54,634 nt of DNA, taken from NCBI GenBank assembly GCA_900319525.1, contig ONOU01000028.1, forward strand, positions 1 to 54,634, in the 5' to 3' direction. The notes below the pieces were generated by a model, which had not been told where the DNA came from, ran no database searches, and saw nothing but the letters and a program-made list of their open reading frames with translations. Position 1 is the stretch's first letter. Each line of letters starts with the position of its first letter. The stretch is from an uncultured Prevotellaceae bacterium (GTDB taxonomy: Bacteria > Bacteroidota > Bacteroidia > Bacteroidales > Muribaculaceae). Position numbers and translations under genes: made by a program. Positions 2,365-54,634 of this stretch are shown piece by piece.

Positions 2365-5300
2365 TTACTTCATCATCTCCTGGATGGCGCGCTCGAGCTG
2401 GCGGTCGTGGCCCGTGAGGTAGTCCTCGGGGGTGTTATAGACCTCGATGTCGGGCTTGAGCTCGGTGTTCTCGCAGTAGTTGCCGCGCATGTCACGGCAG
2501 CCCACCTGCGGGATGCCAAAGACAAGACTGTTGTCGATCAACGTCTCCCACCACACGGCGGTCATCGTGCCGGGAACGGGGGTGCCGATAAGTTTGCCGA
2601 TGCCCAGTTCCCTATAGACCCACGGGAAACCGTGGCCATTGCTGTAGTCGTCCTCACAAACGAGCACGCACGACGGCTTGGTCCACTTGTTGAACGGGTC
2701 GGCGCCCACGACCTTGCCGTGGGGCACGAATTCCTGGTACTGCTTGCCGCTGAGCAGGGTGCACAGGTCATCGTGCAGCCAGCCGCCGCCATTGTGGCGC
2801 TCGTCGACGATGACAGCCTTGCGGTTGCGGTTGCGGTCGCTCAACAGCTCACGATAGACGGTGCGGTAGCTCTCGCTGTTCATCTCCTTGACGTGGACAT
2901 AGGCCAGCTGGCCCCCTGACAAGCTATCTACCAGCGCGCGGTTGCGGTCCACCCAGCGCTTGTAGAGCAGTTCGTTTTGCTCCCCCTTGCTGATGGCCTT
3001 GACGGTGACGTCAAAACGCTTGCCCTGCTTGGGGTTATAGACGCTCACGCGGATCGGCTTGCCGGCCTTGCCGTCGAGCATCCAGTTGTAATCCTCGCCC
3101 TCACGGATCTCGTTACCGTCGATCTTCTCGATGATGCAGCCTGCGGTCACTCCCGTCTTCTTGACTGCAAACGGGCCACGCTTGATGACCTCCACGACGC
3201 GCAGTCCGTTGCCCTGATAGGTGTCGTCCAGGAACAGACCCAGCGCGGCGGTCTTGAGGGTGGGTCCCTCGGGATTGTAACGTGCGCCCGTGTGGGAGCC
3301 GTTGAGCTCGCCCAGCATCTCGCTGAGCATGTCGCGGAAGTCGTAGTTGTTGTTGATGTAGGGCAGGAAGCGCTTGTAGTTGTCGCGGTAGCCTTCCCAG
3401 TCCACACCGTGGATGTCCTCAACGTAGAACTTGTCTTTGACCTGCTGCCAGATGTGGTTGAAGATGTACTCGCGCTCCTCCTGGGGGCGATAGTTGAAGT
3501 TGGCCTCATAGTTGACGGCCTCGGGCTTGCCCTTGGCCAGGTCCACCTTCTTGATGCCGCCACGGGTGCACAGGTACAGGTTCTTCACGTCCTTGTCGGC
3601 CTGCATGGCGCCATAGCCCACGTCCTTGAGCACGATTTCGGTCTTGTTCTCGCGCAGGTCATGTTTCCACAGGTCCATGCCGCCCTCAAATGCTGCCTGA
3701 TAGTACAGCGTGTCGCCACCCTTGCTGAGCACCATGTCGCCCAGGCGCGACGAGTTCACCGTCAGTCGCACGATGCGGTCGCGGCAGTTCTCCAGGTCAA
3801 ATTGCAGCGCGGGCACTGCGGGCTTGTCCTCGCTGGCGCCTTTTTTCTTCTTGTCGGCTTTCTTCTTGGCATTCTTTTCGTCCTTGGCCTTGTCGGCCTC
3901 CTTCTTCTGCTCCTTGTCGGCCTCCTCACGCAGGACTTTCTCCTCCTTGGTCATCGTGAAGCGCTCATAGGCGTCCAGGTCAAAGAACATGATATAGACG
4001 TCGTCCTCGGCGCCCCAGCTGCCGTGGCTGCGGAAACCCGCGCGGTCGCTGGTGAAGATCATCGCCTTGCCGCCAAGCACCCACTTGCCGTTGCCCTCGT
4101 TGTAGCCGCTCTCGGTCAGGTTGTGCACCTCGCCGTTGCCGCTGGCGTTGACCAGCGCCACGTCCTGGCTGTTCCAGCCGCCCGTGCCGATGTAGGACGA
4201 CAACAGCCAGCGGCTGTCGGGACTCCACTCATACCACACGTCGCCGTCGCTATAGGAGTAGATGTACTTGCCGTCCATGAGCGTGCGCACGGCCTTGCTC
4301 TTGACGTCCACGGCGCGCAGTGTGGCGCGGTCTTCCAGGAAGGCTACGCTCTTGCCGTCGGGGCTGTAAGTGGGCTGGATGCTGGTTTTGCCGGTGTTGG
4401 TGAGCTGTTCCTCGACCAGGTCGCTGGCATAGGTGAACAGCTTCTCGTCCTTGTTCTTGATGGTGGTCTGGTAGATCTGCCACATGCCGCCGCGCTCGCT
4501 GTCATAGACGATGCTGCGGCCGTCGGGCGAGAAGTCGATGGTGCGCTCCTGCTCGGGGGTGTTGGTGACCTGCTTGGTGGTGTTATAGTCCACCGAGGTC
4601 ACATACACGTCACCATGCATGACAAAGGCCACCTCCTTGCCGCTGGGCGACACGCTGATGGCTGTGGCGCCGCTCCTCTTGATCTGGCGCACGAGCTCTT
4701 TTTCGGTCTGGTCGGCGGCGATAGTGATGGGCACGCGCTGGGGCTCACTGCCCTCGCGCAGGGTGTATATCTCACCGTTGTAGCCGTAGCACAGCGTGCC
4801 GTTGCTGGCCACCGTCAGGAACCGCACGGGATTCTTGGTGTGGCGGGTGAGCTGCACGGGCTTGCCGCCAACGGTGCTCTTGTAAACATTGAAGGTGCCG
4901 TCCTGCTCGCTCAGGTAATAATAGGCCTTGCCGTCGGCAGCCCAGCGGGGTGTGCGGTCCTCACCGTTGAAGCCGGTGAGCTTGGTGAACTTGCCGTCAC
5001 GCTTGAGCCACACGTCACGCGTGATGGACGAGGTGTGATGCTTGCGGAAGGGGTCCTCATAGCCCTTGATGTCGTGGAACAGGATGTCGCCATTGGCGTT
5101 GACGCTCAGGTCCTGCATCGGCAACTCCGAGAACAGGCGTGCACGGCCGCCGCTGGTGCTCACCTGATACACCTGGGGGAACGAGCGGCTGGCAAACAGG
5201 ATGGACTGTGCCGTGGGCATATTGGTGGCCTCGAACAGCACTGTGCCGTTGTCCAGGAAGCACAGCGGGGTCTCGTTGCCGCTGTCGGTAGTCAGGCGAC

Positions 5301-6252: not shown

Positions 6253-7770
6253 TTTCTTTTTCCAGAAATTGGCGCCTTTGGCTTTTAGTTGCTGGGTGAA
6301 GGCGAGGGCTGCTGCGCGTGTGGCGGCCTCGTCCTCGGGGCTGGCCATGGCGTGGTGGTAGCCTCGGGTCTTGTTCCACTCGCCGCGGGTGAAATCGGGC
6401 ACCTGGACGGGCAGGTTGCCGTTGTCCATCGACAGGCTTCCCAATTCGGCCAGGCAACACCACTCGGCCAGGTCATACACGTCGATGTCGAGCGGTAGCC
6501 CGTTCTGCAGGCAATACACGAGCCGTGAGTCCATGATGAAGTCCATGCCGCCGTGTCCGCCCACCTCGCGTGCCTCCTCGCCATATCGCAGCACGAGGGG
6601 CGCGGTGAACGACTTCATGAGCGCCTCGGTGTCCTCCTTGTTGAGGTAGGAGTGCCCCGTGTAGTTCTTGCTCACGCTGATACCTGCCTGGGCCATCGCG
6701 TCGGACGCCAGCGCATAGCCCTCGACAGGGTATTTGTTGGCAAATCCCTTGGTGCCCGTGAGCTGGTACATGCGGTTATAGGGTTGCGGGGTCATCACGT
6801 TGTGGTGAATCTCGATGACCTTGCCGCCCTCGGTCGAGATGAGCGTGGTGGTGTGATCACCGTTCCTGAAGCCGGGGCAATCCTCGCCGGTGCGGTCCTT
6901 GACCAGCGCCTTGCCGTTGAACGAGCGGGTATCCATCGCCACGAGCGTCTTCATGCGGTCGCCACGGTGGATGTTCAGCACCTGAGCAATGGGTCCCAAG
7001 CCGTGGGTGGGATAGATGTCGCCGCGGAACTTGCTGTTATAGTCCAGACGCCAGCCGAGCTGATCCTCGGCACCCTTTTTCCAGTATTCATCCCAATAGG
7101 GCGACAACTCGTGGCGATAAGCGCCCTGCACATAGATAACCTCGCCCAGCAGCCCCTGTTGAGCCATGTGGAGCGAGTTGAGCTCAAAGAAGTCATAGCA
7201 GCAGTTCTCGAGCATCATCACGTGGAGGCGCTTGCTCTCGCTCAGGTTGATCAATGACCATATCTCGGTCATGTTCATTGCCGACGGCACCTCGATGGCG
7301 ACGTGGTGGCCGTGCTCGAGCGCCTCGCGTGCCACCAGGTAGTGATGGAGCCAGTCGGTGGCAATATAGACCAGGTCGATGTCGGTGCGGCGGCACAGGT
7401 CCTTATAACCGTCTTCCCCGTCATAGATGTCGGCGGCTGGCATCGATGCCTCCTTCAGGATCTGCTGGCAGGCCTCGGCACGCTCGCGTTCATGGTCACA
7501 CAGGGCCTTGACCTCGATGCCGGGGATGTGCGTCCATCGCTCGACGGCGTCAGGTCCGCGCATGCCCAAACCGACAAACGCTACCCGCACGACGGGAATT
7601 TTTTCTACTGCCATCCCTAACGCCGACTGCTGGCCGGCAGGCCGCTTGGGAACTTGGGTGACAATCGTCCCGTCCTGGATGGTATAGGGCCAGTTGAACT
7701 GTGCCCACGAGCTGGCTGGCAGCAGCACGAATACTGCCAACAGGAGTGCAATGATATCTCTCGTTCTCAT
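6250..7770 (-). CDS. Gfo/Idh/MocA-family protein, GH109 alpha-N-acetylgalactosaminidase-like
   Basis: The 506-residue exported enzyme has a signal peptide (about 1-23, ending SWAQ), then a Rossmann NAD-binding domain with GLGMRG at 67-72, and a Gfo/Idh/MocA C-terminal half. The EVPSAMNMTEIW segment is typical of GH109, which uses a bound NAD to cleave alpha-N-acetylgalactosamine, for example on mucin or blood-group glycans; assignment to GH109 rather than another oxidoreductase is inferred from resemblance. The start at 7770 is chosen for the signal peptide. A minus-strand TATATTTG -7 box at 7817-7810 has a TTTG 22 nt upstream. The stop codon overlaps the target duplication of the MITE-like element. 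It stands alone, 135 nt upstream of the patatin gene stop. Confidence 0.75.
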   Translation of the reverse strand: MRTRDIIALLLAVFVLLPASSWAQFNWPYTIQDGTIVTQVPKRPAGQQSALGMAVEKIPVVRVAFVGLGMRGPDAVERWTHIPGIEVKALCDHERERAEACQQILKEASMPAADIYDGEDGYKDLCRRTDIDLVYIATDWLHHYLVAREALEHGHHVAIEVPSAMNMTEIWSLINLSESKRLHVMMLENCCYDFFELNSLHMAQQGLLGEVIYVQGAYRHELSPYWDEYWKKGAEDQLGWRLDYNSKFRGDIYPTHGLGPIAQVLNIHRGDRMKTLVAMDTRSFNGKALVKDRTGEDCPGFRNGDHTTTLISTEGGKVIEIHHNVMTPQPYNRMYQLTGTKGFANKYPVEGYALASDAMAQAGISVSKNYTGHSYLNKEDTEALMKSFTAPLVLRYGEEAREVGGHGGMDFIMDSRLVYCLQNGLPLDIDVYDLAEWCCLAELGSLSMDNGNLPVQVPDFTRGEWNKTRGYHHAMASPEDEAATRAAALAFTQQLKAKGANFWKKK

Positions 7771-10002: not shown

Positions 10003-11202
10003 ATGAAAACATATCTCGTGACGGGAGCCGCAGGTTTTATCGGCTCAAACTTTGTAAAGTATATTCTCAACAAGTATGGCGACAATATTGAGATCATCAT
10101 CCTCGACGCCTTGACCTATGCCGGCAATCTCGCCTCAATCAAGGAGGAGATTGAGCGCTCCAACGTCACTTTTGTCCGTGGCGACGTGCGTGACCGCGAG
10201 CTGGTGCAGGGCATCATGCGTGACAACGATGTGGACTACATCGTCAACTTTGCCGCCGAGAGCCATGTGGACCGCAGCATCACCAATCCGCGCCTCTTTC
10301 TCGAGGTGAACATCTTGGGCACCCAGAATATGCTCGACTGTGCCCGCGAGGCCTGGTTTACGGGCAAGGACGCCCAGGGCCGCAACACCTATGCCCCAGG
10401 CAAGAAATACCTGCAGATCTCGACCGACGAGGTCTATGGATCGCTCAGCAAGGACTATGACGAGCCGCAGCCGCTGGAGGTGAGCGACGACGTGCGCGAG
10501 GTGATCGAGGGCCGCACCGACCTCAAGACCTATGGCCGCCACTTCTTCACCGAGGAGACGCCGCTGGCTCCGCGCTCGCCTTACTCGGCCAGCAAGACCA
10601 GCGCCGACCTCATCACGATGGCCTATCACGAGACCTACGGCTTGCCGGTGAACATCACCCGTTGCAGCAACAACTACGGACCCTACCACTTCCCCGAGAA
10701 ACTCATCCCGCTGATCATCAAGAACATCCTTGAGGGCAAGAAACTGCCCGTCTATGGCAAGGGCGAGAACGTGCGCGACTGGCTCTATGTCGAGGACCAT
10801 TGCAAGGGCATCGACCTGGTGCTGCGTCAGGGCACCGTGGGCGAGGTCTATAACATCGGCGGCTTCAATGAGGAAAGCAACATCAACATCGTCAAGCAGG
10901 TCATCGCCATCATCGCCCGCATCATGCGCGAGGAGCCTGAATACCAGCAGTTGCTCAAGTGTGACCTCGACGTCATCAACAACGACCTGATTGAGTTTGT
11001 CACCGACCGTCCCGGCCACGACATGCGCTACGCCATCGACCCCGGCAAGATTGCCCGTGAACTTGGCTGGTACCCCGAGACGCCTTTCACCGTAGGCATC
11101 GAGAAAACCATCCGCTGGAACCTCGACCACCAGCCCTGGGTGGCTAGCGTCACCAGCGGCGACTACCAGCGCTACTACGACGAGATGTACGGCAACCGAT
11201 AA
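10003..11202 (+). CDS. rfbB: dTDP-glucose 4,6-dehydratase
   Basis: The 399-residue short-chain dehydrogenase/reductase makes dTDP-4-keto-6-deoxyglucose, the precursor of dTDP-rhamnose and related sugars for surface polysaccharide. TGAAGFIG (7-14) binds NAD, TDEVYG at 141-146 carries the catalytic Thr-Asp-Glu, and YSASK at 194-198 gives the Tyr/Lys pair. It is about 40 residues longer than most RmlB proteins because of an insertion between TDEVYG and YSASK (about 150-185), as seen in Bacteroidota homologues. The other rml genes are not adjacent; a HigA-like regulator follows after 47 nt. Confidence 0.92.
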   Translation: MKTYLVTGAAGFIGSNFVKYILNKYGDNIEIIILDALTYAGNLASIKEEIERSNVTFVRGDVRDRELVQGIMRDNDVDYIVNFAAESHVDRSITNPRLFLEVNILGTQNMLDCAREAWFTGKDAQGRNTYAPGKKYLQISTDEVYGSLSKDYDEPQPLEVSDDVREVIEGRTDLKTYGRHFFTEETPLAPRSPYSASKTSADLITMAYHETYGLPVNITRCSNNYGPYHFPEKLIPLIIKNILEGKKLPVYGKGENVRDWLYVEDHCKGIDLVLRQGTVGEVYNIGGFNEESNINIVKQVIAIIARIMREEPEYQQLLKCDLDVINNDLIEFVTDRPGHDMRYAIDPGKIARELGWYPETPFTVGIEKTIRWNLDHQPWVASVTSGDYQRYYDEMYGNR

Positions 11203-45825: not shown

Positions 45826-47130
45826 TTATTTGCCGAGTTGTGCGATAAACGGGCCGCAGCAGTATAGTGGCACATTGGTCATCCATTCTTGTTCTCGGTA
45901 GTCCATCATGGAGAATCGGATACCTTTCATGCCAGGGTGGCGCTCTACAAACAAGCGCAGGCTTTTTGCCTTGACATTCTCTTCTGCTTTCACTTCAATG
46001 GGAATAACGCGCCCGGCATGTTCTATAATAAAATCTATTTCACCTGATGAATTTCCTGCACTCCAATAATAGATGTCCCTATTTGTTGGGCGCAGTTGGG
46101 TGAATACATACTCTTCGGTGAGCGCGCCTTTATACATGTTAAATAATTCATTGCCATCAACAAGGGCTGCCGCTTGCAGGTTGCACATGGCACCAAGCAG
46201 CCCAACATCATGCAAGAATAGCTTAAATGCCGAGAAGTCAGCAAATCCCGCAAGAGGCATTTCGCCGCTGTTCACACGCTTCACCTTGGCCAGTAGTCCT
46301 GCATCACATAGCCATTGAATGGCTTTCTCAAATTTAGCGGCTCTGGCTCCTTGCTTAAGCATGCCGTAGATGAATTTTTTGTTTTCTTTAGACAATTGGG
46401 CCGCAATGGAGTTCCAGACAATATTGATCAAAGGCAACTCTTCTTCGGGTGCATGCTTGGAAAAGTCCGCCGAATAGGCTGTCAAGATATTATGCTGTAA
46501 ACGTCTTGCCTCATCATAATCTTCATTTTCGATGAAGTTTGATACCACTTCTGGCATGCCGCCCACAAAGTAATAATCTTTCAAATAACGTTTCAGTTTA
46601 TCGGCTACGACTGGTAAAAGAGTAGTATCACATCGCTTCAACAAGTCAACGATTTGGTTCTGTTCACGTGCTTCCAGGTACTCGACAAATGACATGGGAT
46701 AAAGGTCTAGGAAATCGACCTTACCAACAGGGAAAGAATCTCCCTCGTGTATCGAAATTCCTAGCAATGATCCCGCCGCCACGACATGGAGTTGAGGAGC
46801 TTTTTCATAGAAGTATTTCAATGCCATAACGCCACGGCGAGCTGCCTGCAACTCGTCAAAGATGATGAGGGTGCCTTCATCGACCATGATGCCGGTTCTC
46901 AACTCGATGGCTGAGAGGATGCGCTTGATGTCAAAGTCGGTTGTAAAGACATCTTGCAGCACTTCATCATCCTCAAAGTTTACATAAACTGACTTGCCAT
47001 GATAAGCGACTCGTGCAAACTCCTTCATGAGCCACGTTTTACCCACCTGGCGTGCTCCTCGCAATACCAACGGTTTTCTGTTTTCGCGAGATTTCCATTT
47101 AATAAGATCTTTGATTGCTTCTCTTCTCAT
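45826..47130 (-). CDS. AAA_14 / DUF4143 ATPase
   Basis: The 434-residue protein has an AAA_14 P-loop GARQVGKTW at 25-33, Walker B LIIFDELQAARRG, a helical DUF4143 middle, and a PD-(D/E)xK-like C-terminus with EIDFIIEHAGRVIPIEVKA. These ATPases are common, often duplicated, in Bacteroidales; their function is unknown, perhaps mobile or toxin-like. Base use is less GC-rich than the neighbouring genes. The start codon is preceded by a -7-like TAATTTTG at 47166-47159 and three direct repeats. Confidence 0.85.
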   Translation of the reverse strand: MRREAIKDLIKWKSRENRKPLVLRGARQVGKTWLMKEFARVAYHGKSVYVNFEDDEVLQDVFTTDFDIKRILSAIELRTGIMVDEGTLIIFDELQAARRGVMALKYFYEKAPQLHVVAAGSLLGISIHEGDSFPVGKVDFLDLYPMSFVEYLEAREQNQIVDLLKRCDTTLLPVVADKLKRYLKDYYFVGGMPEVVSNFIENEDYDEARRLQHNILTAYSADFSKHAPEEELPLINIVWNSIAAQLSKENKKFIYGMLKQGARAAKFEKAIQWLCDAGLLAKVKRVNSGEMPLAGFADFSAFKLFLHDVGLLGAMCNLQAAALVDGNELFNMYKGALTEEYVFTQLRPTNRDIYYWSAGNSSGEIDFIIEHAGRVIPIEVKAEENVKAKSLRLFVERHPGMKGIRFSMMDYREQEWMTNVPLYCCGPFIAQLGK

Positions 47131-47185
47131 TTCCTTCAGCGATTTTGTATAACTGCTGCAAAATTAGTCATTTATTTCAAAACGC

Positions 47186-47267
47186 GACATTTTTTAGTCG
47201 GAATAATTGTCGATTTTGACATTTTTTAGTCGGAATAATTGTTGATTTTGACATTTTTTAGTCGGAA
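47186..47267. repeat. Three direct 32-bp repeats upstream of the AAA_14 gene
   Basis: Unit starts are at 47186, 47218 and 47250, exactly 32 bp apart; units 1 and 2 differ at one base (C/T), and unit 3 keeps only the first ~18 bases, GACATTTTTTAGTCGGAA. Relative to the minus-strand -7 box at 47166-47159 the first unit starts at about the -33 position. A spacing of about three helical turns suggests a regulator-binding array. The rest of the interval to 47495 holds no supported gene; it ends in a TACCTTTG -7 box at 47482-47489. Confidence 0.85.
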
Positions 47268-47495
47268 AAAATGTAAGCCGCTGACTGCTCTGGTTTTTTT
47301 TGATGGCATCCGCGCCGAGTTTCATCTTGAAAGATTTCCTGGATTATAAGAGTGTTGTCATGCCTCGTTTTTCTTTTGGGATTTTAAGGATTCAGAGCAT
47401 TCAGAATGATCAGTTGCTTGAATTTTTGCCAAATCGAGGTGTTTTTCGTCGTTTTTGGCAAGTTATAAGGATAATAATTTCTACCTTTGCGGGAT

Positions 47496-47687
47496 ATGGA
47501 GGAATTTGATATCAGGAGGGAACAGCTCAAGACCGATCAGGATTTTGAGCGTGCGTTGAGGCCGGTGCGGTTTGAGGACTTTGCCGGTCAGGACAAGATT
47601 ATCGAGAACAACACAGACGGCATGCTCACCTCCCCAACCAGCATCACCTCCTCCTACCTGAAATCTAAAAACTACGGGTGTTTCTGA
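47496..47687 (+). pseudogene. ruvB: Truncated 5' copy of ruvB
   Basis: ATG 47496 opens a 63-codon frame. Codons 1-38 are homologous to the N-terminus of the intact RuvB at 49772. The first 33 bases differ by synonymous and few coding changes, then 47529-47609 is 81 bases identical to 49808-49888. After 47609 the similarity ends abruptly and unrelated sequence runs to a stop at 47687. It keeps a TACCTTTG -7 box, so it may still be transcribed. It is a remnant of the gene split by insertion, not a functional protein. Confidence 0.9.
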
Positions 47688-47787
47688 TTACTAATAGGAT
47701 ATTCGCCTTTATTATCAACAACTTACAAGCGGCCAAAATAAGTCGTTTTGGTCGCTCTACACACATAAAATTTCAAAAGACTGTGTA

Positions 47788-48858
47788 TTATTTAGGTTTT
47801 ATCCAAATATCAACTGGATTCCGACTACAATAATCATCAAATTCTTTTATCCTCAATTGGATTGAATTGATATCAATGCGAAAATACTGGCATCTTTGGG
47901 CATCATTATCTGAAGAATCTCTGTTTGTACCATACTTTTTGTATAGCTTACAAATACCGAAGCCATCTAGCATATCATAAACATGATACTTACACAAACA
48001 GCAGTGCTTTAATTCCCTATTGTACTGGCTCGCAACGGCAAAAGCTATGCTGAAAAATCCCCCATCACCAATAAAATCAGGGACACAGTCGATATGTGGA
48101 ATTGTAATCTCTATTTCTCCACGTCGATTGAGTAATTGGCTACAATGAATTGTTTGTACATTTCCCTTTTTTGAAGAGAAAATAATGAATTTTTGAAACA
48201 AACTCTCAAACTCATTAGCCGAAGAATACTTTTCTCTTGGTTGAAAGTTATACAACCGTACCCTGTTGCTCTTCTGAATTCTATGATTAATAATTTCATC
48301 TATGTCGTCTTCTGATTTAATAACAAACTCAATTATTCTAATTCCAGAGTTTAGTTTTTCTTTCTCACAAGGGTGCGACACACATATTTCTATAAAGAGA
48401 GGCTCATTTTTCTCATTTACAGGATAACAAAGTAAATCAGCTACATATTTTTGCCCATTTTTCTCATAATGTTTTTCTTTTTCACAGGAACTATAATACT
48501 GTTTGAGATTAAACGCTTTTGTATTTATCACCTTTTGGCATATCTCCTTTCTGTAGAAAGCACATGCATTATGTCTTTCACAAATCTCATTTGCCTGTAG
48601 AACTAACGATACATCATTTGTGTTATTGAACCATTCTAATAATCTTTGCTCTGCAATTGTATGTAAATAATTATCATAATTACACTTAGCTTTCACATGA
48701 GCAAAATGCCAAGCATTCTTTGTACCACACCTACAAACCATTTGGTCCCCACATTGGGGACAATAATACTCTCCTCCCAATCGATGAGCATCATGAATCT
48801 CAATGAGTTCGTTATCTACATTCAAAGCAAAACGATATTTGACTTGGTCTTCTTTCAT
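47788..48858 (-). CDS. CoiA-like nuclease with zinc ribbon
   Basis: The 356-residue protein resembles competence protein CoiA: an N-terminal zinc ribbon (CPQC at 33-36, CRC at 42-44) ending in HFAH (51-54), then an LHTIAEQRL helix, a PD-(D/E)xK-like nuclease core with Asp in KYVADLLCY and Glu in PLFIEICVSH, and a C-terminal Cys cluster (CCLCKYHVYDM..CKLYKK..CQYF). ATG 48858 is preferred over a TTG at 48870. The gene is AT-rich compared with its neighbours, a sign of transfer. DNA processing or defence is plausible; no competence genes are nearby. Confidence 0.65.
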   Translation of the reverse strand: MKEDQVKYRFALNVDNELIEIHDAHRLGGEYYCPQCGDQMVCRCGTKNAWHFAHVKAKCNYDNYLHTIAEQRLLEWFNNTNDVSLVLQANEICERHNACAFYRKEICQKVINTKAFNLKQYYSSCEKEKHYEKNGQKYVADLLCYPVNEKNEPLFIEICVSHPCEKEKLNSGIRIIEFVIKSEDDIDEIINHRIQKSNRVRLYNFQPREKYSSANEFESLFQKFIIFSSKKGNVQTIHCSQLLNRRGEIEITIPHIDCVPDFIGDGGFFSIAFAVASQYNRELKHCCLCKYHVYDMLDGFGICKLYKKYGTNRDSSDNDAQRCQYFRIDINSIQLRIKEFDDYCSRNPVDIWIKPK

Positions 48859-49044
48859 GGGGAGAAACAATCAATCATGTGTTAAACTTTCAATAATACA
48901 CAGTCCAAACATGAATAGTCATTCCACCATTAAATAATGACCAATCCACATTCTTCTGCATGATATAATTATGTTCGAATTTCTTATCCAAGATTGTTAT
49001 CCTTTCAGAAATGAAAGATATGTACCCAATCGAAATCATTAGAA
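48859..49044. other. AT-rich interval between the CoiA-like and Xre genes
   Basis: No gene and no clear promoter are seen on either strand. The downstream CoiA-like gene may use the Xre transcript or an unrecognised promoter here. Confidence 0.35.
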
Positions 49045-49494
49045 TCAATTTTCTACTATATCAACGCTTGCCCCAATTGCGTTTGCAATTTTGGAGAGTA
49101 TGTCTAACCCGACAGAATATTTTCCAGCTTCTATCTTACTAAGGTTAGACGGGTCAATTCCAGCTATTTTTGCAATGTTTTTTGCTTCCATCTTTTTTTT
49201 CTCACGTATTTCTTTTAGACGAGCTCCAATTCTGGAACGTTCTTCGGCCCTATCGCTTGACCAAGATGAAAATGATATACCTAGATTAGCCTGTACATCG
49301 CAAAATACGAAATAAACCATTAGTGACTTATCTTGTGAATAATTCCGATCAAAACTATTTGCAACATAAGTTGCTATCTTTCCAAGGTCATTTTTTTCTA
49401 GAGAGAAGGCAAACACGATCTTAAACACCTCTCCTTCAGGGTCAACAACTACTAATGTTTTGTTGTCGATAAATGTTGATTTAGATTTGTCCAT
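49045..49494 (-). CDS. Xre-family transcriptional regulator
   Basis: The 149-residue protein has an N-terminal domain of about 80 residues that I do not recognise, and a C-terminal Xre helix-turn-helix (IGARLKEIREKKKMEAKNIA, then AGIDPSNLSKIEAGKYSVGL). ATG 49494 begins MDKSKSTF; a GTG eight codons upstream (49518) is the alternative. It is on AT-rich, probably transferred, DNA with the CoiA-like gene and is likely autoregulated through the palindrome over its own promoter. Confidence 0.75.
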   Translation of the reverse strand: MDKSKSTFIDNKTLVVVDPEGEVFKIVFAFSLEKNDLGKIATYVANSFDRNYSQDKSLMVYFVFCDVQANLGISFSSWSSDRAEERSRIGARLKEIREKKKMEAKNIAKIAGIDPSNLSKIEAGKYSVGLDILSKIANAIGASVDIVEN

Positions 49495-49543
49495 TTTTGC
49501 AGGATTTAAAAGATTCACATTAATTTTATTATTATTTTTGATG

Positions 49544-49591
49544 CAAAGATATATGTTTTTTTTGAATTGGCAAATTTACCAATTCAAAAAA
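49544..49591 (-). promoter_or_regulatory. Xre promoter overlapped by a 13-bp inverted repeat (likely operator)
   Basis: The minus-strand promoter has TTTG at 49574-49571, 19 nt, then TATCTTTG at 49551-49544. The inverted repeat TTTTTTGAATTGG (49558-49570) and its exact complement (49579-49591) surround the -33 TTTG, which lies in the 8-nt spacer. A bound repressor would block polymerase. A further ATTGGCAAA half-site is at 49662-49670. Confidence 0.75.
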
Positions 49592-49771
49592 TGCAAATAA
49601 TGCCTTAATTATTTAAAAATCGACGTCAAATGAAACTATAACCCTCACTTTGTTCCTATAGATTGGCAAAATTCGGGATTATCTGCATTGCAGACATTAA
49701 AGAACATGTATTTCTATATTAGTTCGTGTAATTCGTAGTTTATAAAACTTTTTACTATCTTTGCAGTTGGT

Positions 49772-50791
49772 ATGGACGAAGAATTTGACATCAGACGGGA
49801 GTCGTTAAAGACCGATCAGGATTTTGAGCGTGCGTTGAGGCCGGTGCGGTTTGAGGACTTTGCCGGTCAGGACAAGATTATCGAGAACCTGCGCGTGTTT
49901 GTCGCTGCGGCCAAGCTGCGCGGCGAGTCGCTGGACCATGTGCTGTTTCACGGTCCTCCGGGTTTGGGAAAGACCACGTTGAGCAACATCATCGCCAACG
50001 AGTTGGGTGTGGGCTTCAAGGTGACGTCAGGGCCCGTGCTCGACAAGCCGGGCGACCTGGCTGGACTGCTGACGTCGCTCGACGAGAATGACGTGCTCTT
50101 CATCGACGAGATCCACCGCCTGAGCCCCATCGTGGAGGAGTACCTCTACAGCGCGATGGAGGACTACCGCATCGATATCATGATTGACAAGGGTCCCGGT
50201 GCCCGCTCAGTGCAGCTGACGCTGGCCCCATTTACCCTTATCGGCGCGACGACACGCAGCGGCCTGCTGACCTCGCCCCTGCGTGCCCGCTTCGGCATCA
50301 ACTGCCATCTGGAATACTATGACCACAAGGTGCTGGAGGGCATCATCCGCCGCTCGGCCCGCCTGATGGCTGTTCCCATCGATGACAAAGCGGCCACCGA
50401 GATTGCCCTGCGCAGCCGTGGCACGCCCCGAATCGCCAACTCGCTGCTGCGCCGCGTGCGCGACTTCGCCCAGGTGAAGGGCAGCGGACGCATCGACCTG
50501 GACATCGCCCGCTATGCCCTGGAGGCGCTGAACATCGACAAATATGGCCTCGACGAGATTGACAACAAGATTCTGCTGACCATCATCGACAAGTTCGGTG
50601 GCGGCCCCGTGGGCTTGAACACCATCGCCACCGCCATGAACGAGGATGCCGGCACCATCGAGGAGGTCTATGAGCCCTATCTGATCAAGGAAGGCTTCAT
50701 CAACCGCACCCCCCGTGGACGCGAGGCGACCATGCTTGCCTACAACCACCTGAAGCGCGAGCGCCCCGGCGAAGTGGGAAGCATTTTTTAA
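49772..50791 (+). CDS. ruvB: Holliday junction branch-migration helicase RuvB
   Basis: The 339-residue AAA+ protein has Walker [10 protein letters not shown] at 61-69, Walker [28 protein letters not shown] with the arginine finger, and the C-terminal winged helix. It drives branch migration of Holliday junctions with RuvA. The intact gene has a TATCTTTG -7 box at 49756-49763, only 8 nt before the ATG, so the leader is very short. Bases 49808-49888 are identical to the broken copy at 47529-47609; the promoter and first codons come from the inserted DNA or its junction. Confidence 0.96.
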
Positions 50792-50894: not shown

Positions 50895-52382
50895 ATGGCT
50901 AATTTGAAATCTCTGGCAAAGGATACTGCCATCTATGGCTTGAGCAGCATTGTGGCTCGTTTTGTCAACTACCTGCTCGTGCCGATACAGACGTTGAAAT
51001 TCGCTTCCACCGGAGGCGAATATGGCATCATCACCAACGTCTATGCCTATGTGGCTATTCTCATCATGGTGCTGACCTTCGGTATGGAGACCACTTTCTT
51101 CAGGTTCATGAACAAGGAGGGTATGGACCGGAAAAAGGTGTACTCCACGGTGCTGAGGATGGTAGGAACGGTGGGGATGGTGACTACGGTTATCGTGTTG
51201 CTCTTCAGTGGGGAAATCGCAGCCTTGTTAGGTTATGGCGACCACCCGGAATATGTGGCGGTGATGTATATCACCGTTGCCCTTGATGCCTTCACGGCGA
51301 TTGCGTTTGCCTACTTGCGCTGTGAACACAAACCCATCAAATTCGCCTCTTTGAAGATTGCCAACATCGGCTTGAACATTGTGCTCAACCTGATTTATTT
51401 CTTCGGGTTGCCCATGCTGCATCTCAACCCCTTCGGCATCTATGGCGAGACGTTCCACTACGACGTGGTGTGGGTGTTCTACATCAATCTGTTCTGCTCG
51501 ATGTTCAACCTCGTTTTCCTACACAAGGAATTGCGTGGTATCAACTCAGGATTTGACAAGAAGATGTGCCGCCAGATGTTGTCCTATGCTTGGCCCATCC
51601 TAGTCATGGGTATCGCCGGCCAGCTCAATCAGAGCCTCTCGCAGATCATGTTCCCCAAGGTGTATCAAGGCGGCAACGCGATGAGCGAATTGGGCATTTA
51701 TGGTGCCTGCATCAAGATAGCGATGATCATGATGATGATCACTCAGGCCTTCCGCTTTGCCTACGAGCCGTTTGTGTTCAGCAAGGTCAAGGACAAGGAC
51801 AGCAAGGAGGTTTATGCCCAGACGATGAAGTACTACATCATCTTCACCCTGCTGGCATTCCTTGTGGTGATGGCCTACATTGACTTGCTCAAGTACCTGA
51901 TCGGCGAGAGCTACTGGAGCGGCCTGCGCGTGGTGCCCATTGTGATGGCGGCCGAAATCGTGTTTGGCGTCTTCTTTAACCTCTCATTCTGGTACAAGCT
52001 CACCGACCGCACCATCTGGGGAGCCTATTTCTCGGGCATTGGCGCCGTTGTGCTGTTCGTGATCAATCTGCTGTTCATCCCACGCTTCAGCTACATGGCG
52101 TGTGCCTGGGCAGGACTCATTGCTTATAGCGTGTCGATGCTCTTATCTTATTTCATTGGTCAGAAGTACTTCCCGATCCGCTACCCGTTGCGCGACATTG
52201 CCATTTATACCGTTGTGGCCGCCATCCTGTTCACGGCGATGATGCTGCCCGTGGAGAACATGTGGCTCCGGTTGGCCTGCCGCACGGTGCTGCTGTTGCT
52301 GTTCATGGGCTTCATCTACCGCAAGGAGCACCTGGGCCAGATGCTGGCCAAGCTGCCTGTCGTGGGCCGCTTCTTCAAGTAA
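50895..52382 (+). CDS. Polysaccharide flippase (Wzx / MATE-type)
   Basis: The 495-residue integral membrane protein has about 12-14 transmembrane segments with the MATE/Wzx arrangement (AIYGLSSIVARFVNYLLVPI at the start; long hydrophobic repeats to VVGRF). It moves lipid-linked oligosaccharides or related lipids across the inner membrane. It stands alone, not inside a glycan cluster, so the substrate is not known. Confidence 0.8.
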   Translation: MANLKSLAKDTAIYGLSSIVARFVNYLLVPIQTLKFASTGGEYGIITNVYAYVAILIMVLTFGMETTFFRFMNKEGMDRKKVYSTVLRMVGTVGMVTTVIVLLFSGEIAALLGYGDHPEYVAVMYITVALDAFTAIAFAYLRCEHKPIKFASLKIANIGLNIVLNLIYFFGLPMLHLNPFGIYGETFHYDVVWVFYINLFCSMFNLVFLHKELRGINSGFDKKMCRQMLSYAWPILVMGIAGQLNQSLSQIMFPKVYQGGNAMSELGIYGACIKIAMIMMMITQAFRFAYEPFVFSKVKDKDSKEVYAQTMKYYIIFTLLAFLVVMAYIDLLKYLIGESYWSGLRVVPIVMAAEIVFGVFFNLSFWYKLTDRTIWGAYFSGIGAVVLFVINLLFIPRFSYMACAWAGLIAYSVSMLLSYFIGQKYFPIRYPLRDIAIYTVVAAILFTAMMLPVENMWLRLACRTVLLLLFMGFIYRKEHLGQMLAKLPVVGRFFK

Positions 52383-54495: not shown

Positions 54496-54613
54496 TTATT
54501 GTCCGGGAAAAGCCCCGCTAGGGGCGACCAGAGTATAGGCAGGGGTGTAACGAGGCGAAGCCGAGTGAAACCCCTGCAATAGCCAAGACACATCACCAAG
54601 CCCCGCTAGGGGC
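54496..54613. repeat. GC-rich hairpin repeat at the window edge
   Basis: TTATTGTCCGGG (54496-54507, also at 13702-13713) is followed by GCCCCGCTAGGGGC (54512-54525), a perfect 5-bp hairpin, then GCAGGGGT (54539-54546) pairing with ACCCCTGC (54570-54577), and a second GCCCCGCTAGGGGC at 54600-54613. This is an interspersed repeat of palindromic units that may continue beyond the window. Confidence 0.6.
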
Positions 54614-54634
54614 GGCAGGAAATCATTGATATAC

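Follow-up and report, generated by a model that had tools for sequence, protein, structure and literature searches.

Organization of the ruvB Region

The stretch of DNA analyzed in this work (hereafter, the window) comprises 54,634 nucleotides (nt) of contig ONOU01000028.1 in the assembly GCA_900319525.1 of an uncultured Prevotellaceae bacterium (genome G000). It harbors a ruvB region in which two copies of the 5' end of this gene are separated by a block of DNA embedding a CoiA-like gene and a gene for an Xre-type regulator (Table 1). The initial annotation had reported a truncated ruvB (47496–47609) sharing 81 bases with the intact gene, a divergence of the first ~35 bases and AT-rich DNA with CoiA-like and Xre genes between the two copies; all of this was confirmed. 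The alignment of positions 47499–47609 with positions 49778–49888, 2279 nt apart, revealed 92% identity over 111 nt. Identity is exact over the 81 nt at 47529–47609 and 49808–49888, and the mismatches are confined to the first ~35 nt. Moreover, probing the assembly with positions 47450–47650 retrieved these two ruvB sites and no other.

The sequences compared were taken from one genome per species, with no conspecific strain. Among 40 relatives of the genus, no pair out of 780 has an identical run of at least 81 nt within the 105 nt compared, the longest being 75 nt; furthermore, a T at 49831 and 47552, common to both copies, occurs in just 2 of these 40 genomes. Both facts point to a probable shared origin, of recent date, for this stretch in the two copies. 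Upstream of this stretch, the two copies carry different promoters and different first ~35 nt, that is, different allele types. The promoter of the 5' fragment (copy L), whose TACCTTTG box at 47482–47489 we take to be the Bacteroidetes -7 consensus, has, together with the first 33 nt, its six best matches out of 26 in G099, G095, G088, G071, G082, and G084, and G054 is not among the six. Positions 49700–49806, which include the first 35 coding nt of the intact gene (copy R), share 94.4% identity with G054. A general scan for promoters and terminators gave counts no different from those of shuffled sequence. Copy L ends after 114 nt of ruvB, within a 63-codon open reading frame that starts from the ATG at 47496 and is in frame with the sequence that follows it; the fragment is probably the former resident ruvB start.

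Directly 3' of the fragment lies the 3' end of a uvrA paralogue, overlooked in the initial annotation and here named uvrA2, which codes for a UvrA-like protein of 767 amino acids whose best NCBIfam match is TIGR00630 (686 bits, under the cut-off of 730). The scar reads as ruvB up to ATCGAGAAC, followed by uvrA2 from ATCGAGCAC AAC ACC GAC and by the terminal ~47 nt of uvrA2; relative to G054, ~90 nt are missing inside the remnant. At the joint, ruvB (nt ~106–114) and uvrA2 share a microhomology of eight positions out of nine (ATCGAG-AC), a level reached by the 9-mers of the two parent regions in 10 of 39,600 position pairs. The remnant matches the uvrA2 of G054 at 39 of 44 positions (47618–47661) and that of its own genome, intact on contig C9, at 27 of 44; judging from these alignments, it is not derived from the own-genome allele, which ends differently. 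Even when searched for as a degenerate pattern, the joint was found in 1 of 101 genomes of the genus, namely, this one.

The last 59 bp of the window (54576–54634) are identical to positions 1–59 of C9, which is therefore presumed to be the next contig. This suggests that C9, carrying recA, metK, uvrA2 on the minus strand, and POP, follows the window, and that the uvrA2 block has, with respect to ruvB, the opposite orientation to that seen in many relatives.

The inserted block consists, in order, of the uvrA2 remnant, the CoiA-like and the Xre genes, both on the minus strand, and the promoter of the intact ruvB. The GC content is 34–40% in the 500-nt bins spanning 47000–49999, and it is 64% in the bin 50000–50499.

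Table 1. Features of the ruvB region, with positions in the window.
Feature	Position	Strand	Evidence
Promoter region, copy L	47440..47495	+	TACCTTTG box at 47482–47489
ruvB 5' fragment, nt 1–114 (copy L)	47496..47609	+	Alignment to intact ruvB
81-nt identical stretch	47529..47609 (= 49808–49888)	+	Exact identity and shared rare T
ruvB/uvrA2 joint	47601..47609	+	ATCGAGAAC of ruvB overlaps ATCGAGCAC of G054 uvrA2, 8/9
Remnant of uvrA2 3' end	47610..~47665	+	Likeness to G054 uvrA2; similar ends upstream of ruvB in relatives
CoiA-like protein, 360 amino acids	47788..48870	-	CoiA_N PF25164; zinc-finger-like N-terminus, possible PD-(D/E)XK-like core
Xre/Cro-type regulator, 157 amino acids	49045..49518	-	HTH_3, E 2.7e-11
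Palindrome TTTTGAATTGGTAAATTTGCCAATTCAAAA (minus strand)	49560..49589	.	Candidate Xre operator, just upstream of the Xre promoter box
Promoter region, intact ruvB	49690..49771	+	TATCTTTG box at 49756–49763
Intact ruvB (copy R)	49772..50791	+	NF000868 and TIGR00635 above cut-off; Pfam RuvB_N, AAA_lid_4, RuvB_C

Colinearity with a Related Genome

A colinear counterpart of the block was found in G054, in which one contig end carries POP, uvrA2, and CoiA and another carries CoiA, Xre, ruvB, and MATE, the break falling inside CoiA. When the window was divided into six segments from the uvrA2 remnant to nt 35 of ruvB, G054 was the best match in five of them; for the sixth, that is, the uvrA2 remnant, G081 scored 70.7 bits and G054 68.9. 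Further downstream, ruvB nt 115–500, ruvB nt 501–1020, and MATE have their best matches in species other than G054, which is a close second for nt 501–1020 (754 vs. 761 bits). The MATE of G054 is 63% identical to that of this genome, and those of G094 and G088 are 98% identical to it. Since the best matches change from G054, in the block and in the ruvB start, to other species downstream, the ruvB locus is, judged by these matches, a mosaic, and the 81-nt stretch sits where the change occurs.

A single codon helps in distinguishing the two copies, with Gln preceding the residues LK in copy L and Ser in copy R. The MATE class of this genome (at least 85% identity) is found in 7 of the 9 relatives with the Gln type and in 7 of the 28 with the Ser type (Fisher p = 0.014, a value that ignores relatedness and leaves out the 3 of 40 relatives with Arg). 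This weakly suggests that copy L is the resident and copy R the newcomer.

The polysaccharide-export-type gene located 3' of ruvB (50895–52382) falls into allele classes with >90%, ~72%, and ~60% identity to that of the window, and it has apparently been exchanged often within the genus.

The Interval Upstream of ruvB in the Genus

The neighborhood of ruvB was checked in 60 loci of the genus, a non-random set made up of the 40 best DNA matches and 20 more distant ones, some of which are shortened by contig ends. Of the three genes uvrA2, metK, and SpoU, the one closest to ruvB in the 6 kb upstream of it is uvrA2 in 22 loci, metK in four, and SpoU in two, and 32 loci have none of the three there. 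The same 6 kb embed homologs of a type II restriction–modification (RM) system in four loci (the label being taken from the proteins of one genome), IVP-type genes in 13, SusD-like genes in two, and CoiA in two (window excluded). Beyond the four RM loci lie uvrA2 in two cases, metK in one, and no core gene in view in one. Variable cargo is thus present upstream of ruvB in many genomes of the genus, which is one mark of a recombination hotspot.

In G094 (L035), a type II RM cassette lies between uvrA2 and ruvB, with perfect 46-nt inverted uvrA2 3' ends at 6658–6703 and 10431–10476, and the same kind of cassette has the opposite orientation in G013 (L061); cassettes of this type are possibly invertible or recently flipped. 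In the window itself, an AAA_14/DUF4143 ATPase gene (45826–47130) lies between SpoU and the ruvB fragment, and a 32-nt direct repeat in three copies (47186–47281) stands just before its start. According to a search of the genus, no match listed for another genome runs from SpoU into the AAA_14 gene, the longest separate match having 64% identity (G072).

A second scar of the same two genes was found in G099, where the order is the end of a SusD-like gene, ruvB nt 142–189 (as aligned by blastn), a uvrA2 tail, an IVP-type gene, and the intact ruvB. By eye, its joint pairs TTCCATGGC of ruvB with TTCCAAGGC of the G082 uvrA2 at eight positions out of nine (word TTCCA-GGC). The remnant matches its own uvrA2 at 41 of 65 positions, and it is 88.5% identical to that of G081 over 61 columns. 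With a ruvB position near nt 189 rather than 114, the G099 arrangement is, on these alignments, an independent ruvB–uvrA2 scar. In G100 (L054), the same scar architecture affects a neighboring gene, with a POP 5' remnant (2996–3167), a second ywqG copy, and an intact POP at 4270. Lastly, a degraded ruvB piece (nt 13–92), interrupted by in-frame stops, lies 1.2 kb ahead of ruvB in G068 (L161, 9009–9088). The gene standing directly before ruvB in G068, between remnant and ruvB, is by eye formylglycine-enzyme-like.

The N-terminus of RuvB (39 residues) was also used to probe 397 genomes of the family; such a query cannot detect a piece like that of G099. Two matches were found only in G000, G068, and G409, and 24 genomes gave none. 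A recurrent ruvB duplication in the family was discarded, given the 3 genomes out of 397 and the fact that both G409 matches belong to frames of 348–349 amino acids and are not remnants. A second weak match in G069 (40 nt) was dropped, its surroundings being by eye unlike ruvB.

The CoiA-like and Xre Proteins

The CoiA-like protein matches CoiA_N (PF25164) with 40.2 bits (E 2.4e-10; cut-off 26.3), and relatives were retrieved from 54 loci. In an alignment of 20 sequences, taken from the window and 19 of the 54 loci, the residues H54, H57, C62, D144, and E160 do not vary. The structure model has a pLDDT (predicted local distance difference test) of 89 and a strand order compatible with the PD-(D/E)XK fold; nevertheless, the fold search retrieved no PDB structure at E <= 0.001 (best E 0.023), and the sequence search of the PDB gave two weak matches (E 0.039 and 0.18). 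No NCBIfam match was found at E <= 0.001, and the sole PADLOC match was DruB (E 0.014). A nuclease function is plausible.

The Xre protein is 90% identical to that of G054, and its PADLOC matches are HTH_VI (the best, E 3.7e-12) and Control_protein (E 7.2e-8), the latter a likeness to the control proteins of restriction systems. The palindrome upstream of the gene, whose core AATTGGTAAATTTGCCAATT is also present in G054 and altered in G078, represents a putative Xre operator. Half-sites similar to it were seen by eye before some other Xre homologs. The two genes might constitute a self-regulated nuclease module of the defence type.

Within the genus, CoiA is present in 6 of 101 genomes, and Xre adjoins it in this genome, G024, G092, and G001. 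In G054, Xre is present across the contig break from CoiA; in G018, where the contig ends inside CoiA, Xre was not found. A fixed CoiA–Xre operon was rejected, such an Xre gene lying within 1.5 kb upstream of CoiA in just 10 of the 54 loci, in three others of which CoiA stands no more than 700 nt from the locus start. Outside this genus, the pair is loosely linked. The search for CoiA on mobile DNA matched 799 plasmid records, all at <60% identity (the ten listed at <= 31%), and one phage record, with no sign of a carrier for the copy in the window. The CoiA of G054 is broken at two contig ends (the starts of L041 and L149), which by eye resemble each other in carrying sequence of the TTTTTAGTGGACA type; an insertion sequence may lie inside the gene.

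Origin of the Duplicated ruvB Start

Concerning the origin of this arrangement, one joint lies in homologous sequence, and the other lacks extended homology and shows the 8/9 microhomology. As this combination is the signature of one-sided integration, the explanation that we favor, and hold to be somewhat more probable than all others together, is that the locus represents the scar of a recombination event in a hotspot that lacks an integrase and adjoins DNA-repair genes, and that linear DNA of a relative was added there through a crossover in ruvB and an end-joining at a microhomology. The proposal starts from the anatomy of the locus, the microhomology at the joint, a remnant whose allele is not that of its own genome, the colinear order in G054, the contig without a recombinase, and the G099 scar; the donor, the direction of transfer, and the intermediate are what we infer.

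According to this proposal, the incoming DNA would have been a linear chromosomal piece of a relative, running from the uvrA2 3' end through CoiA and Xre into the 5' part of ruvB, and the recipient chromosome would have carried a ruvB with another promoter and other first ~35 nt. The entry route, which the initial annotation left unexplained, would then be homologous on one side, with a RecA-type crossover within the 81-nt identical stretch in the 5' part of ruvB, and a microhomology joining on the other, between ruvB nt ~106–114 and uvrA2. Most likely, the ends of the piece would have been joined into a circle of ~2.3 kb, which would then have entered the chromosome through one crossover at ruvB; a close alternative is a one-step linear event, that is, homology-facilitated illegitimate recombination (HFIR). 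Either way, ruvB would remain intact under the incoming promoter, the old start would be left as a fragment of 114 nt, and the cargo would be added to the hotspot, not swapped.

Several observations weigh against this proposal. In 50-nt bins, the identity between G054 and the window is mostly 80–98%, that of ruvB between species of the genus being ~91%, and the two CoiA sequences are 65% identical. The allele differences favor DNA foreign to the recipient, yet the identity of the block to G054 is no higher than that between species generally. With G054 no closer here than one species of the genus is to another in ruvB, it is conceivable that CoiA–Xre–ruvB was inherited vertically and that the left copy arrived later. 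Moreover, under the circle model, the 81 nt would have to be the same in donor and resident, or to have been converted later, and the ruvB/uvrA2 joint is taken from the assembled contig of a single genome of the species. Extra 5' pieces were found at ruvB in 2 of 60 loci, uvrA2 in 2 of 20 (26–40 nt), POP in 1 of 13, MATE in 0 of 58, and metK in 0 of 5, counts that are not rates, the case of the window lying outside the 60 and G068 being included because its second match was already known. With such pieces also at uvrA2 and POP, the idea of ruvB as a special target was rejected. Lastly, classical HFIR usually deletes recipient DNA, and no such deletion is seen here; in the excerpts available of a study on Escherichia coli, three of four HFIR clones had no homology at the joint (PMC3240628).

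Among the other explanations, a tandem duplication within one genome, in which the segment from the uvrA2 tail to the ruvB 5' end was duplicated through short repeats and later exchanges replaced the upstream part and promoter of the left unit, would account for the joint itself, given that a 2279-bp duplication would yield exactly the junction of ruvB nt 114 with the uvrA2 tail on an 8/9 short repeat; the G100 scar, too, resembles a tandem duplication, of ywqG and the POP 5' end. Nevertheless, the uvrA2 remnant differs in allele from the own uvrA2, both here (27/44) and in G099 (41/65), the two ruvB copies belong to distinct allele types in their promoters and first ~35 nt, and further exchanges would be required afterwards, so that we judge this history unlikely, even if not negligible. 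The merging of two strains, one with SpoU–AAA_14–ruvB and one with uvrA2–CoiA–Xre–ruvB, into one contig is quite improbable in our view. Short-read assembly graphs have difficulty with an exact 81-bp repeat, five members of the genus (G001, G018, G024, G054, and G092) are metagenome genomes, as this one may be, and the contig end and the C9 start have 59 bp in common, which suggests a graph-type assembly; against such an artefact, a graph error at shared words would not give a ruvB/uvrA2 joint with just 8/9 nt in common, G099 carries an independent scar of the same kind, and the remnant has its own internal deletion relative to G054, as old sequence would have.

The initial annotation had proposed an element that enters ruvB and rebuilds its 5' end and promoter, in the way of the elements found at prfC, and had noted that no integrase was visible. 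Integrative elements of the prfC type do enter the 5' end of a gene and rebuild it. What stands is that DNA was added at the ruvB 5' end and that the intact gene differs from the fragment in its promoter and first ~35 nt; a site-specific integrative or cis-mobilizable element targeting the ruvB 5' end, with its integrase lost or acting in trans and the 81 bp as attL/attR, is very unlikely. The geometry would fit, with divergent outsides, an identical core, and a new 5' end supplied. The two recombinase families searched do occur elsewhere in the genome (15 matches to PF00589, the tyrosine recombinases, and 2 to PF00239, the serine recombinases, with one PF00589 on C9 at 59 kb); however, none of them lies beside the block or anywhere on this contig, in agreement with the initial annotation. 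A prfC-type element is not supported, because the block starts in the uvrA2 3' end and is colinear with the chromosomal uvrA2–ruvB spacer of G054, the contig has no recombinase of the two families, the joint pattern is restricted to 1 of 101 genomes of the genus, and the G099 joint lies elsewhere in ruvB (near nt 189 vs. 114), so that no fixed attachment core recurs in independent insertions. The survey of 397 family genomes with the 39-residue query, blind to pieces like that of G099, speaks likewise, with two ruvB N-terminus matches only in G000, G068, and G409, those of G409 not being remnants.

Significance and Comparison with Known Systems

The process that we favor is a variant of known ones. 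The fused remnants of both flanking genes would be physical traces of single additive events and are suited to sequence searches; their presence suggests that one-sided recombination yields in nature products like those obtained in the laboratory. Furthermore, as this case shows, a repeat and a housekeeping gene with a rebuilt 5' end are not enough to indicate an integrative element. It is possible, if rather doubtful, that the interval upstream of ruvB (often uvrA2–ruvB) acts as a stacking hotspot, in which end-joined DNA of relatives with defence-type cargo is added, with no integrase, through one crossover in a repair gene; every such event would supply ruvB with a new promoter and leave a countable ruvB–uvrA2 fusion remnant. 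A search of open-licence PubMed Central papers by strict term matching, which does not prove absence, found no report of a ruvB/uvrA hotspot or of such scars.

As in prfC-type elements, the reading frame of the target gene is preserved behind a new 5' end; unlike them, the contig has no integrase, no fixed site was seen, and the block is colinear with the chromosome of a relative. The CoiA-like and Xre genes share with nuclease operons controlled by C-proteins or Xre regulators the CoiA_N domain, a helix–turn–helix (HTH) protein with a control-protein match, and a palindrome before the regulator gene; they differ from known CoiA-like/Xre nuclease operons in that the CoiA-like protein has no NCBIfam match at E <= 0.001 and in PADLOC only DruB (E 0.014), the pair being known here from sequence.

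The excerpts of PMC3240628 describe, for E. coli recombination with one-sided homology, 56 of 60 recombinants with a polymerase chain reaction product diagnostic of a partial duplication (14 sequenced). These 56 were attributed to the single crossover of a circular, probably re-circularized molecule and the other four apparently to classical HFIR, whose joints have 3–10 bp of microhomology in most cases (PMC3240628). The duplicated pieces were of 109–950 bp, a range that includes the 111–114 nt of ruvB duplicated here. The likeness to these products, as far as the excerpts go, thus consists of a joint in homologous sequence, a second one where homology is scarce or absent, and a partial duplication of the target in most clones. 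Unlike those laboratory constructs in E. coli conjugation, the present case is a natural scar between chromosomal neighbors, with 8/9 microhomology and an inferred intermediate.

According to the portions available of a survey of 80 species (PMC5635113), half of the transfer hotspots have no evidence of mobile elements, and recombination at the flanking core genes, proposed from rates and not from single events, would serve integrase-free hotspots, which recombination and repair genes tend to border. The ruvB locus resembles these hotspots in its variable cargo between core genes, its contig without a recombinase, and its flanks of the recombination/repair type. It differs from the model outlined there, in which cargo is swapped by a double crossover, in that the cargo appears to have been added and a fused remnant of both flanking genes was left behind.

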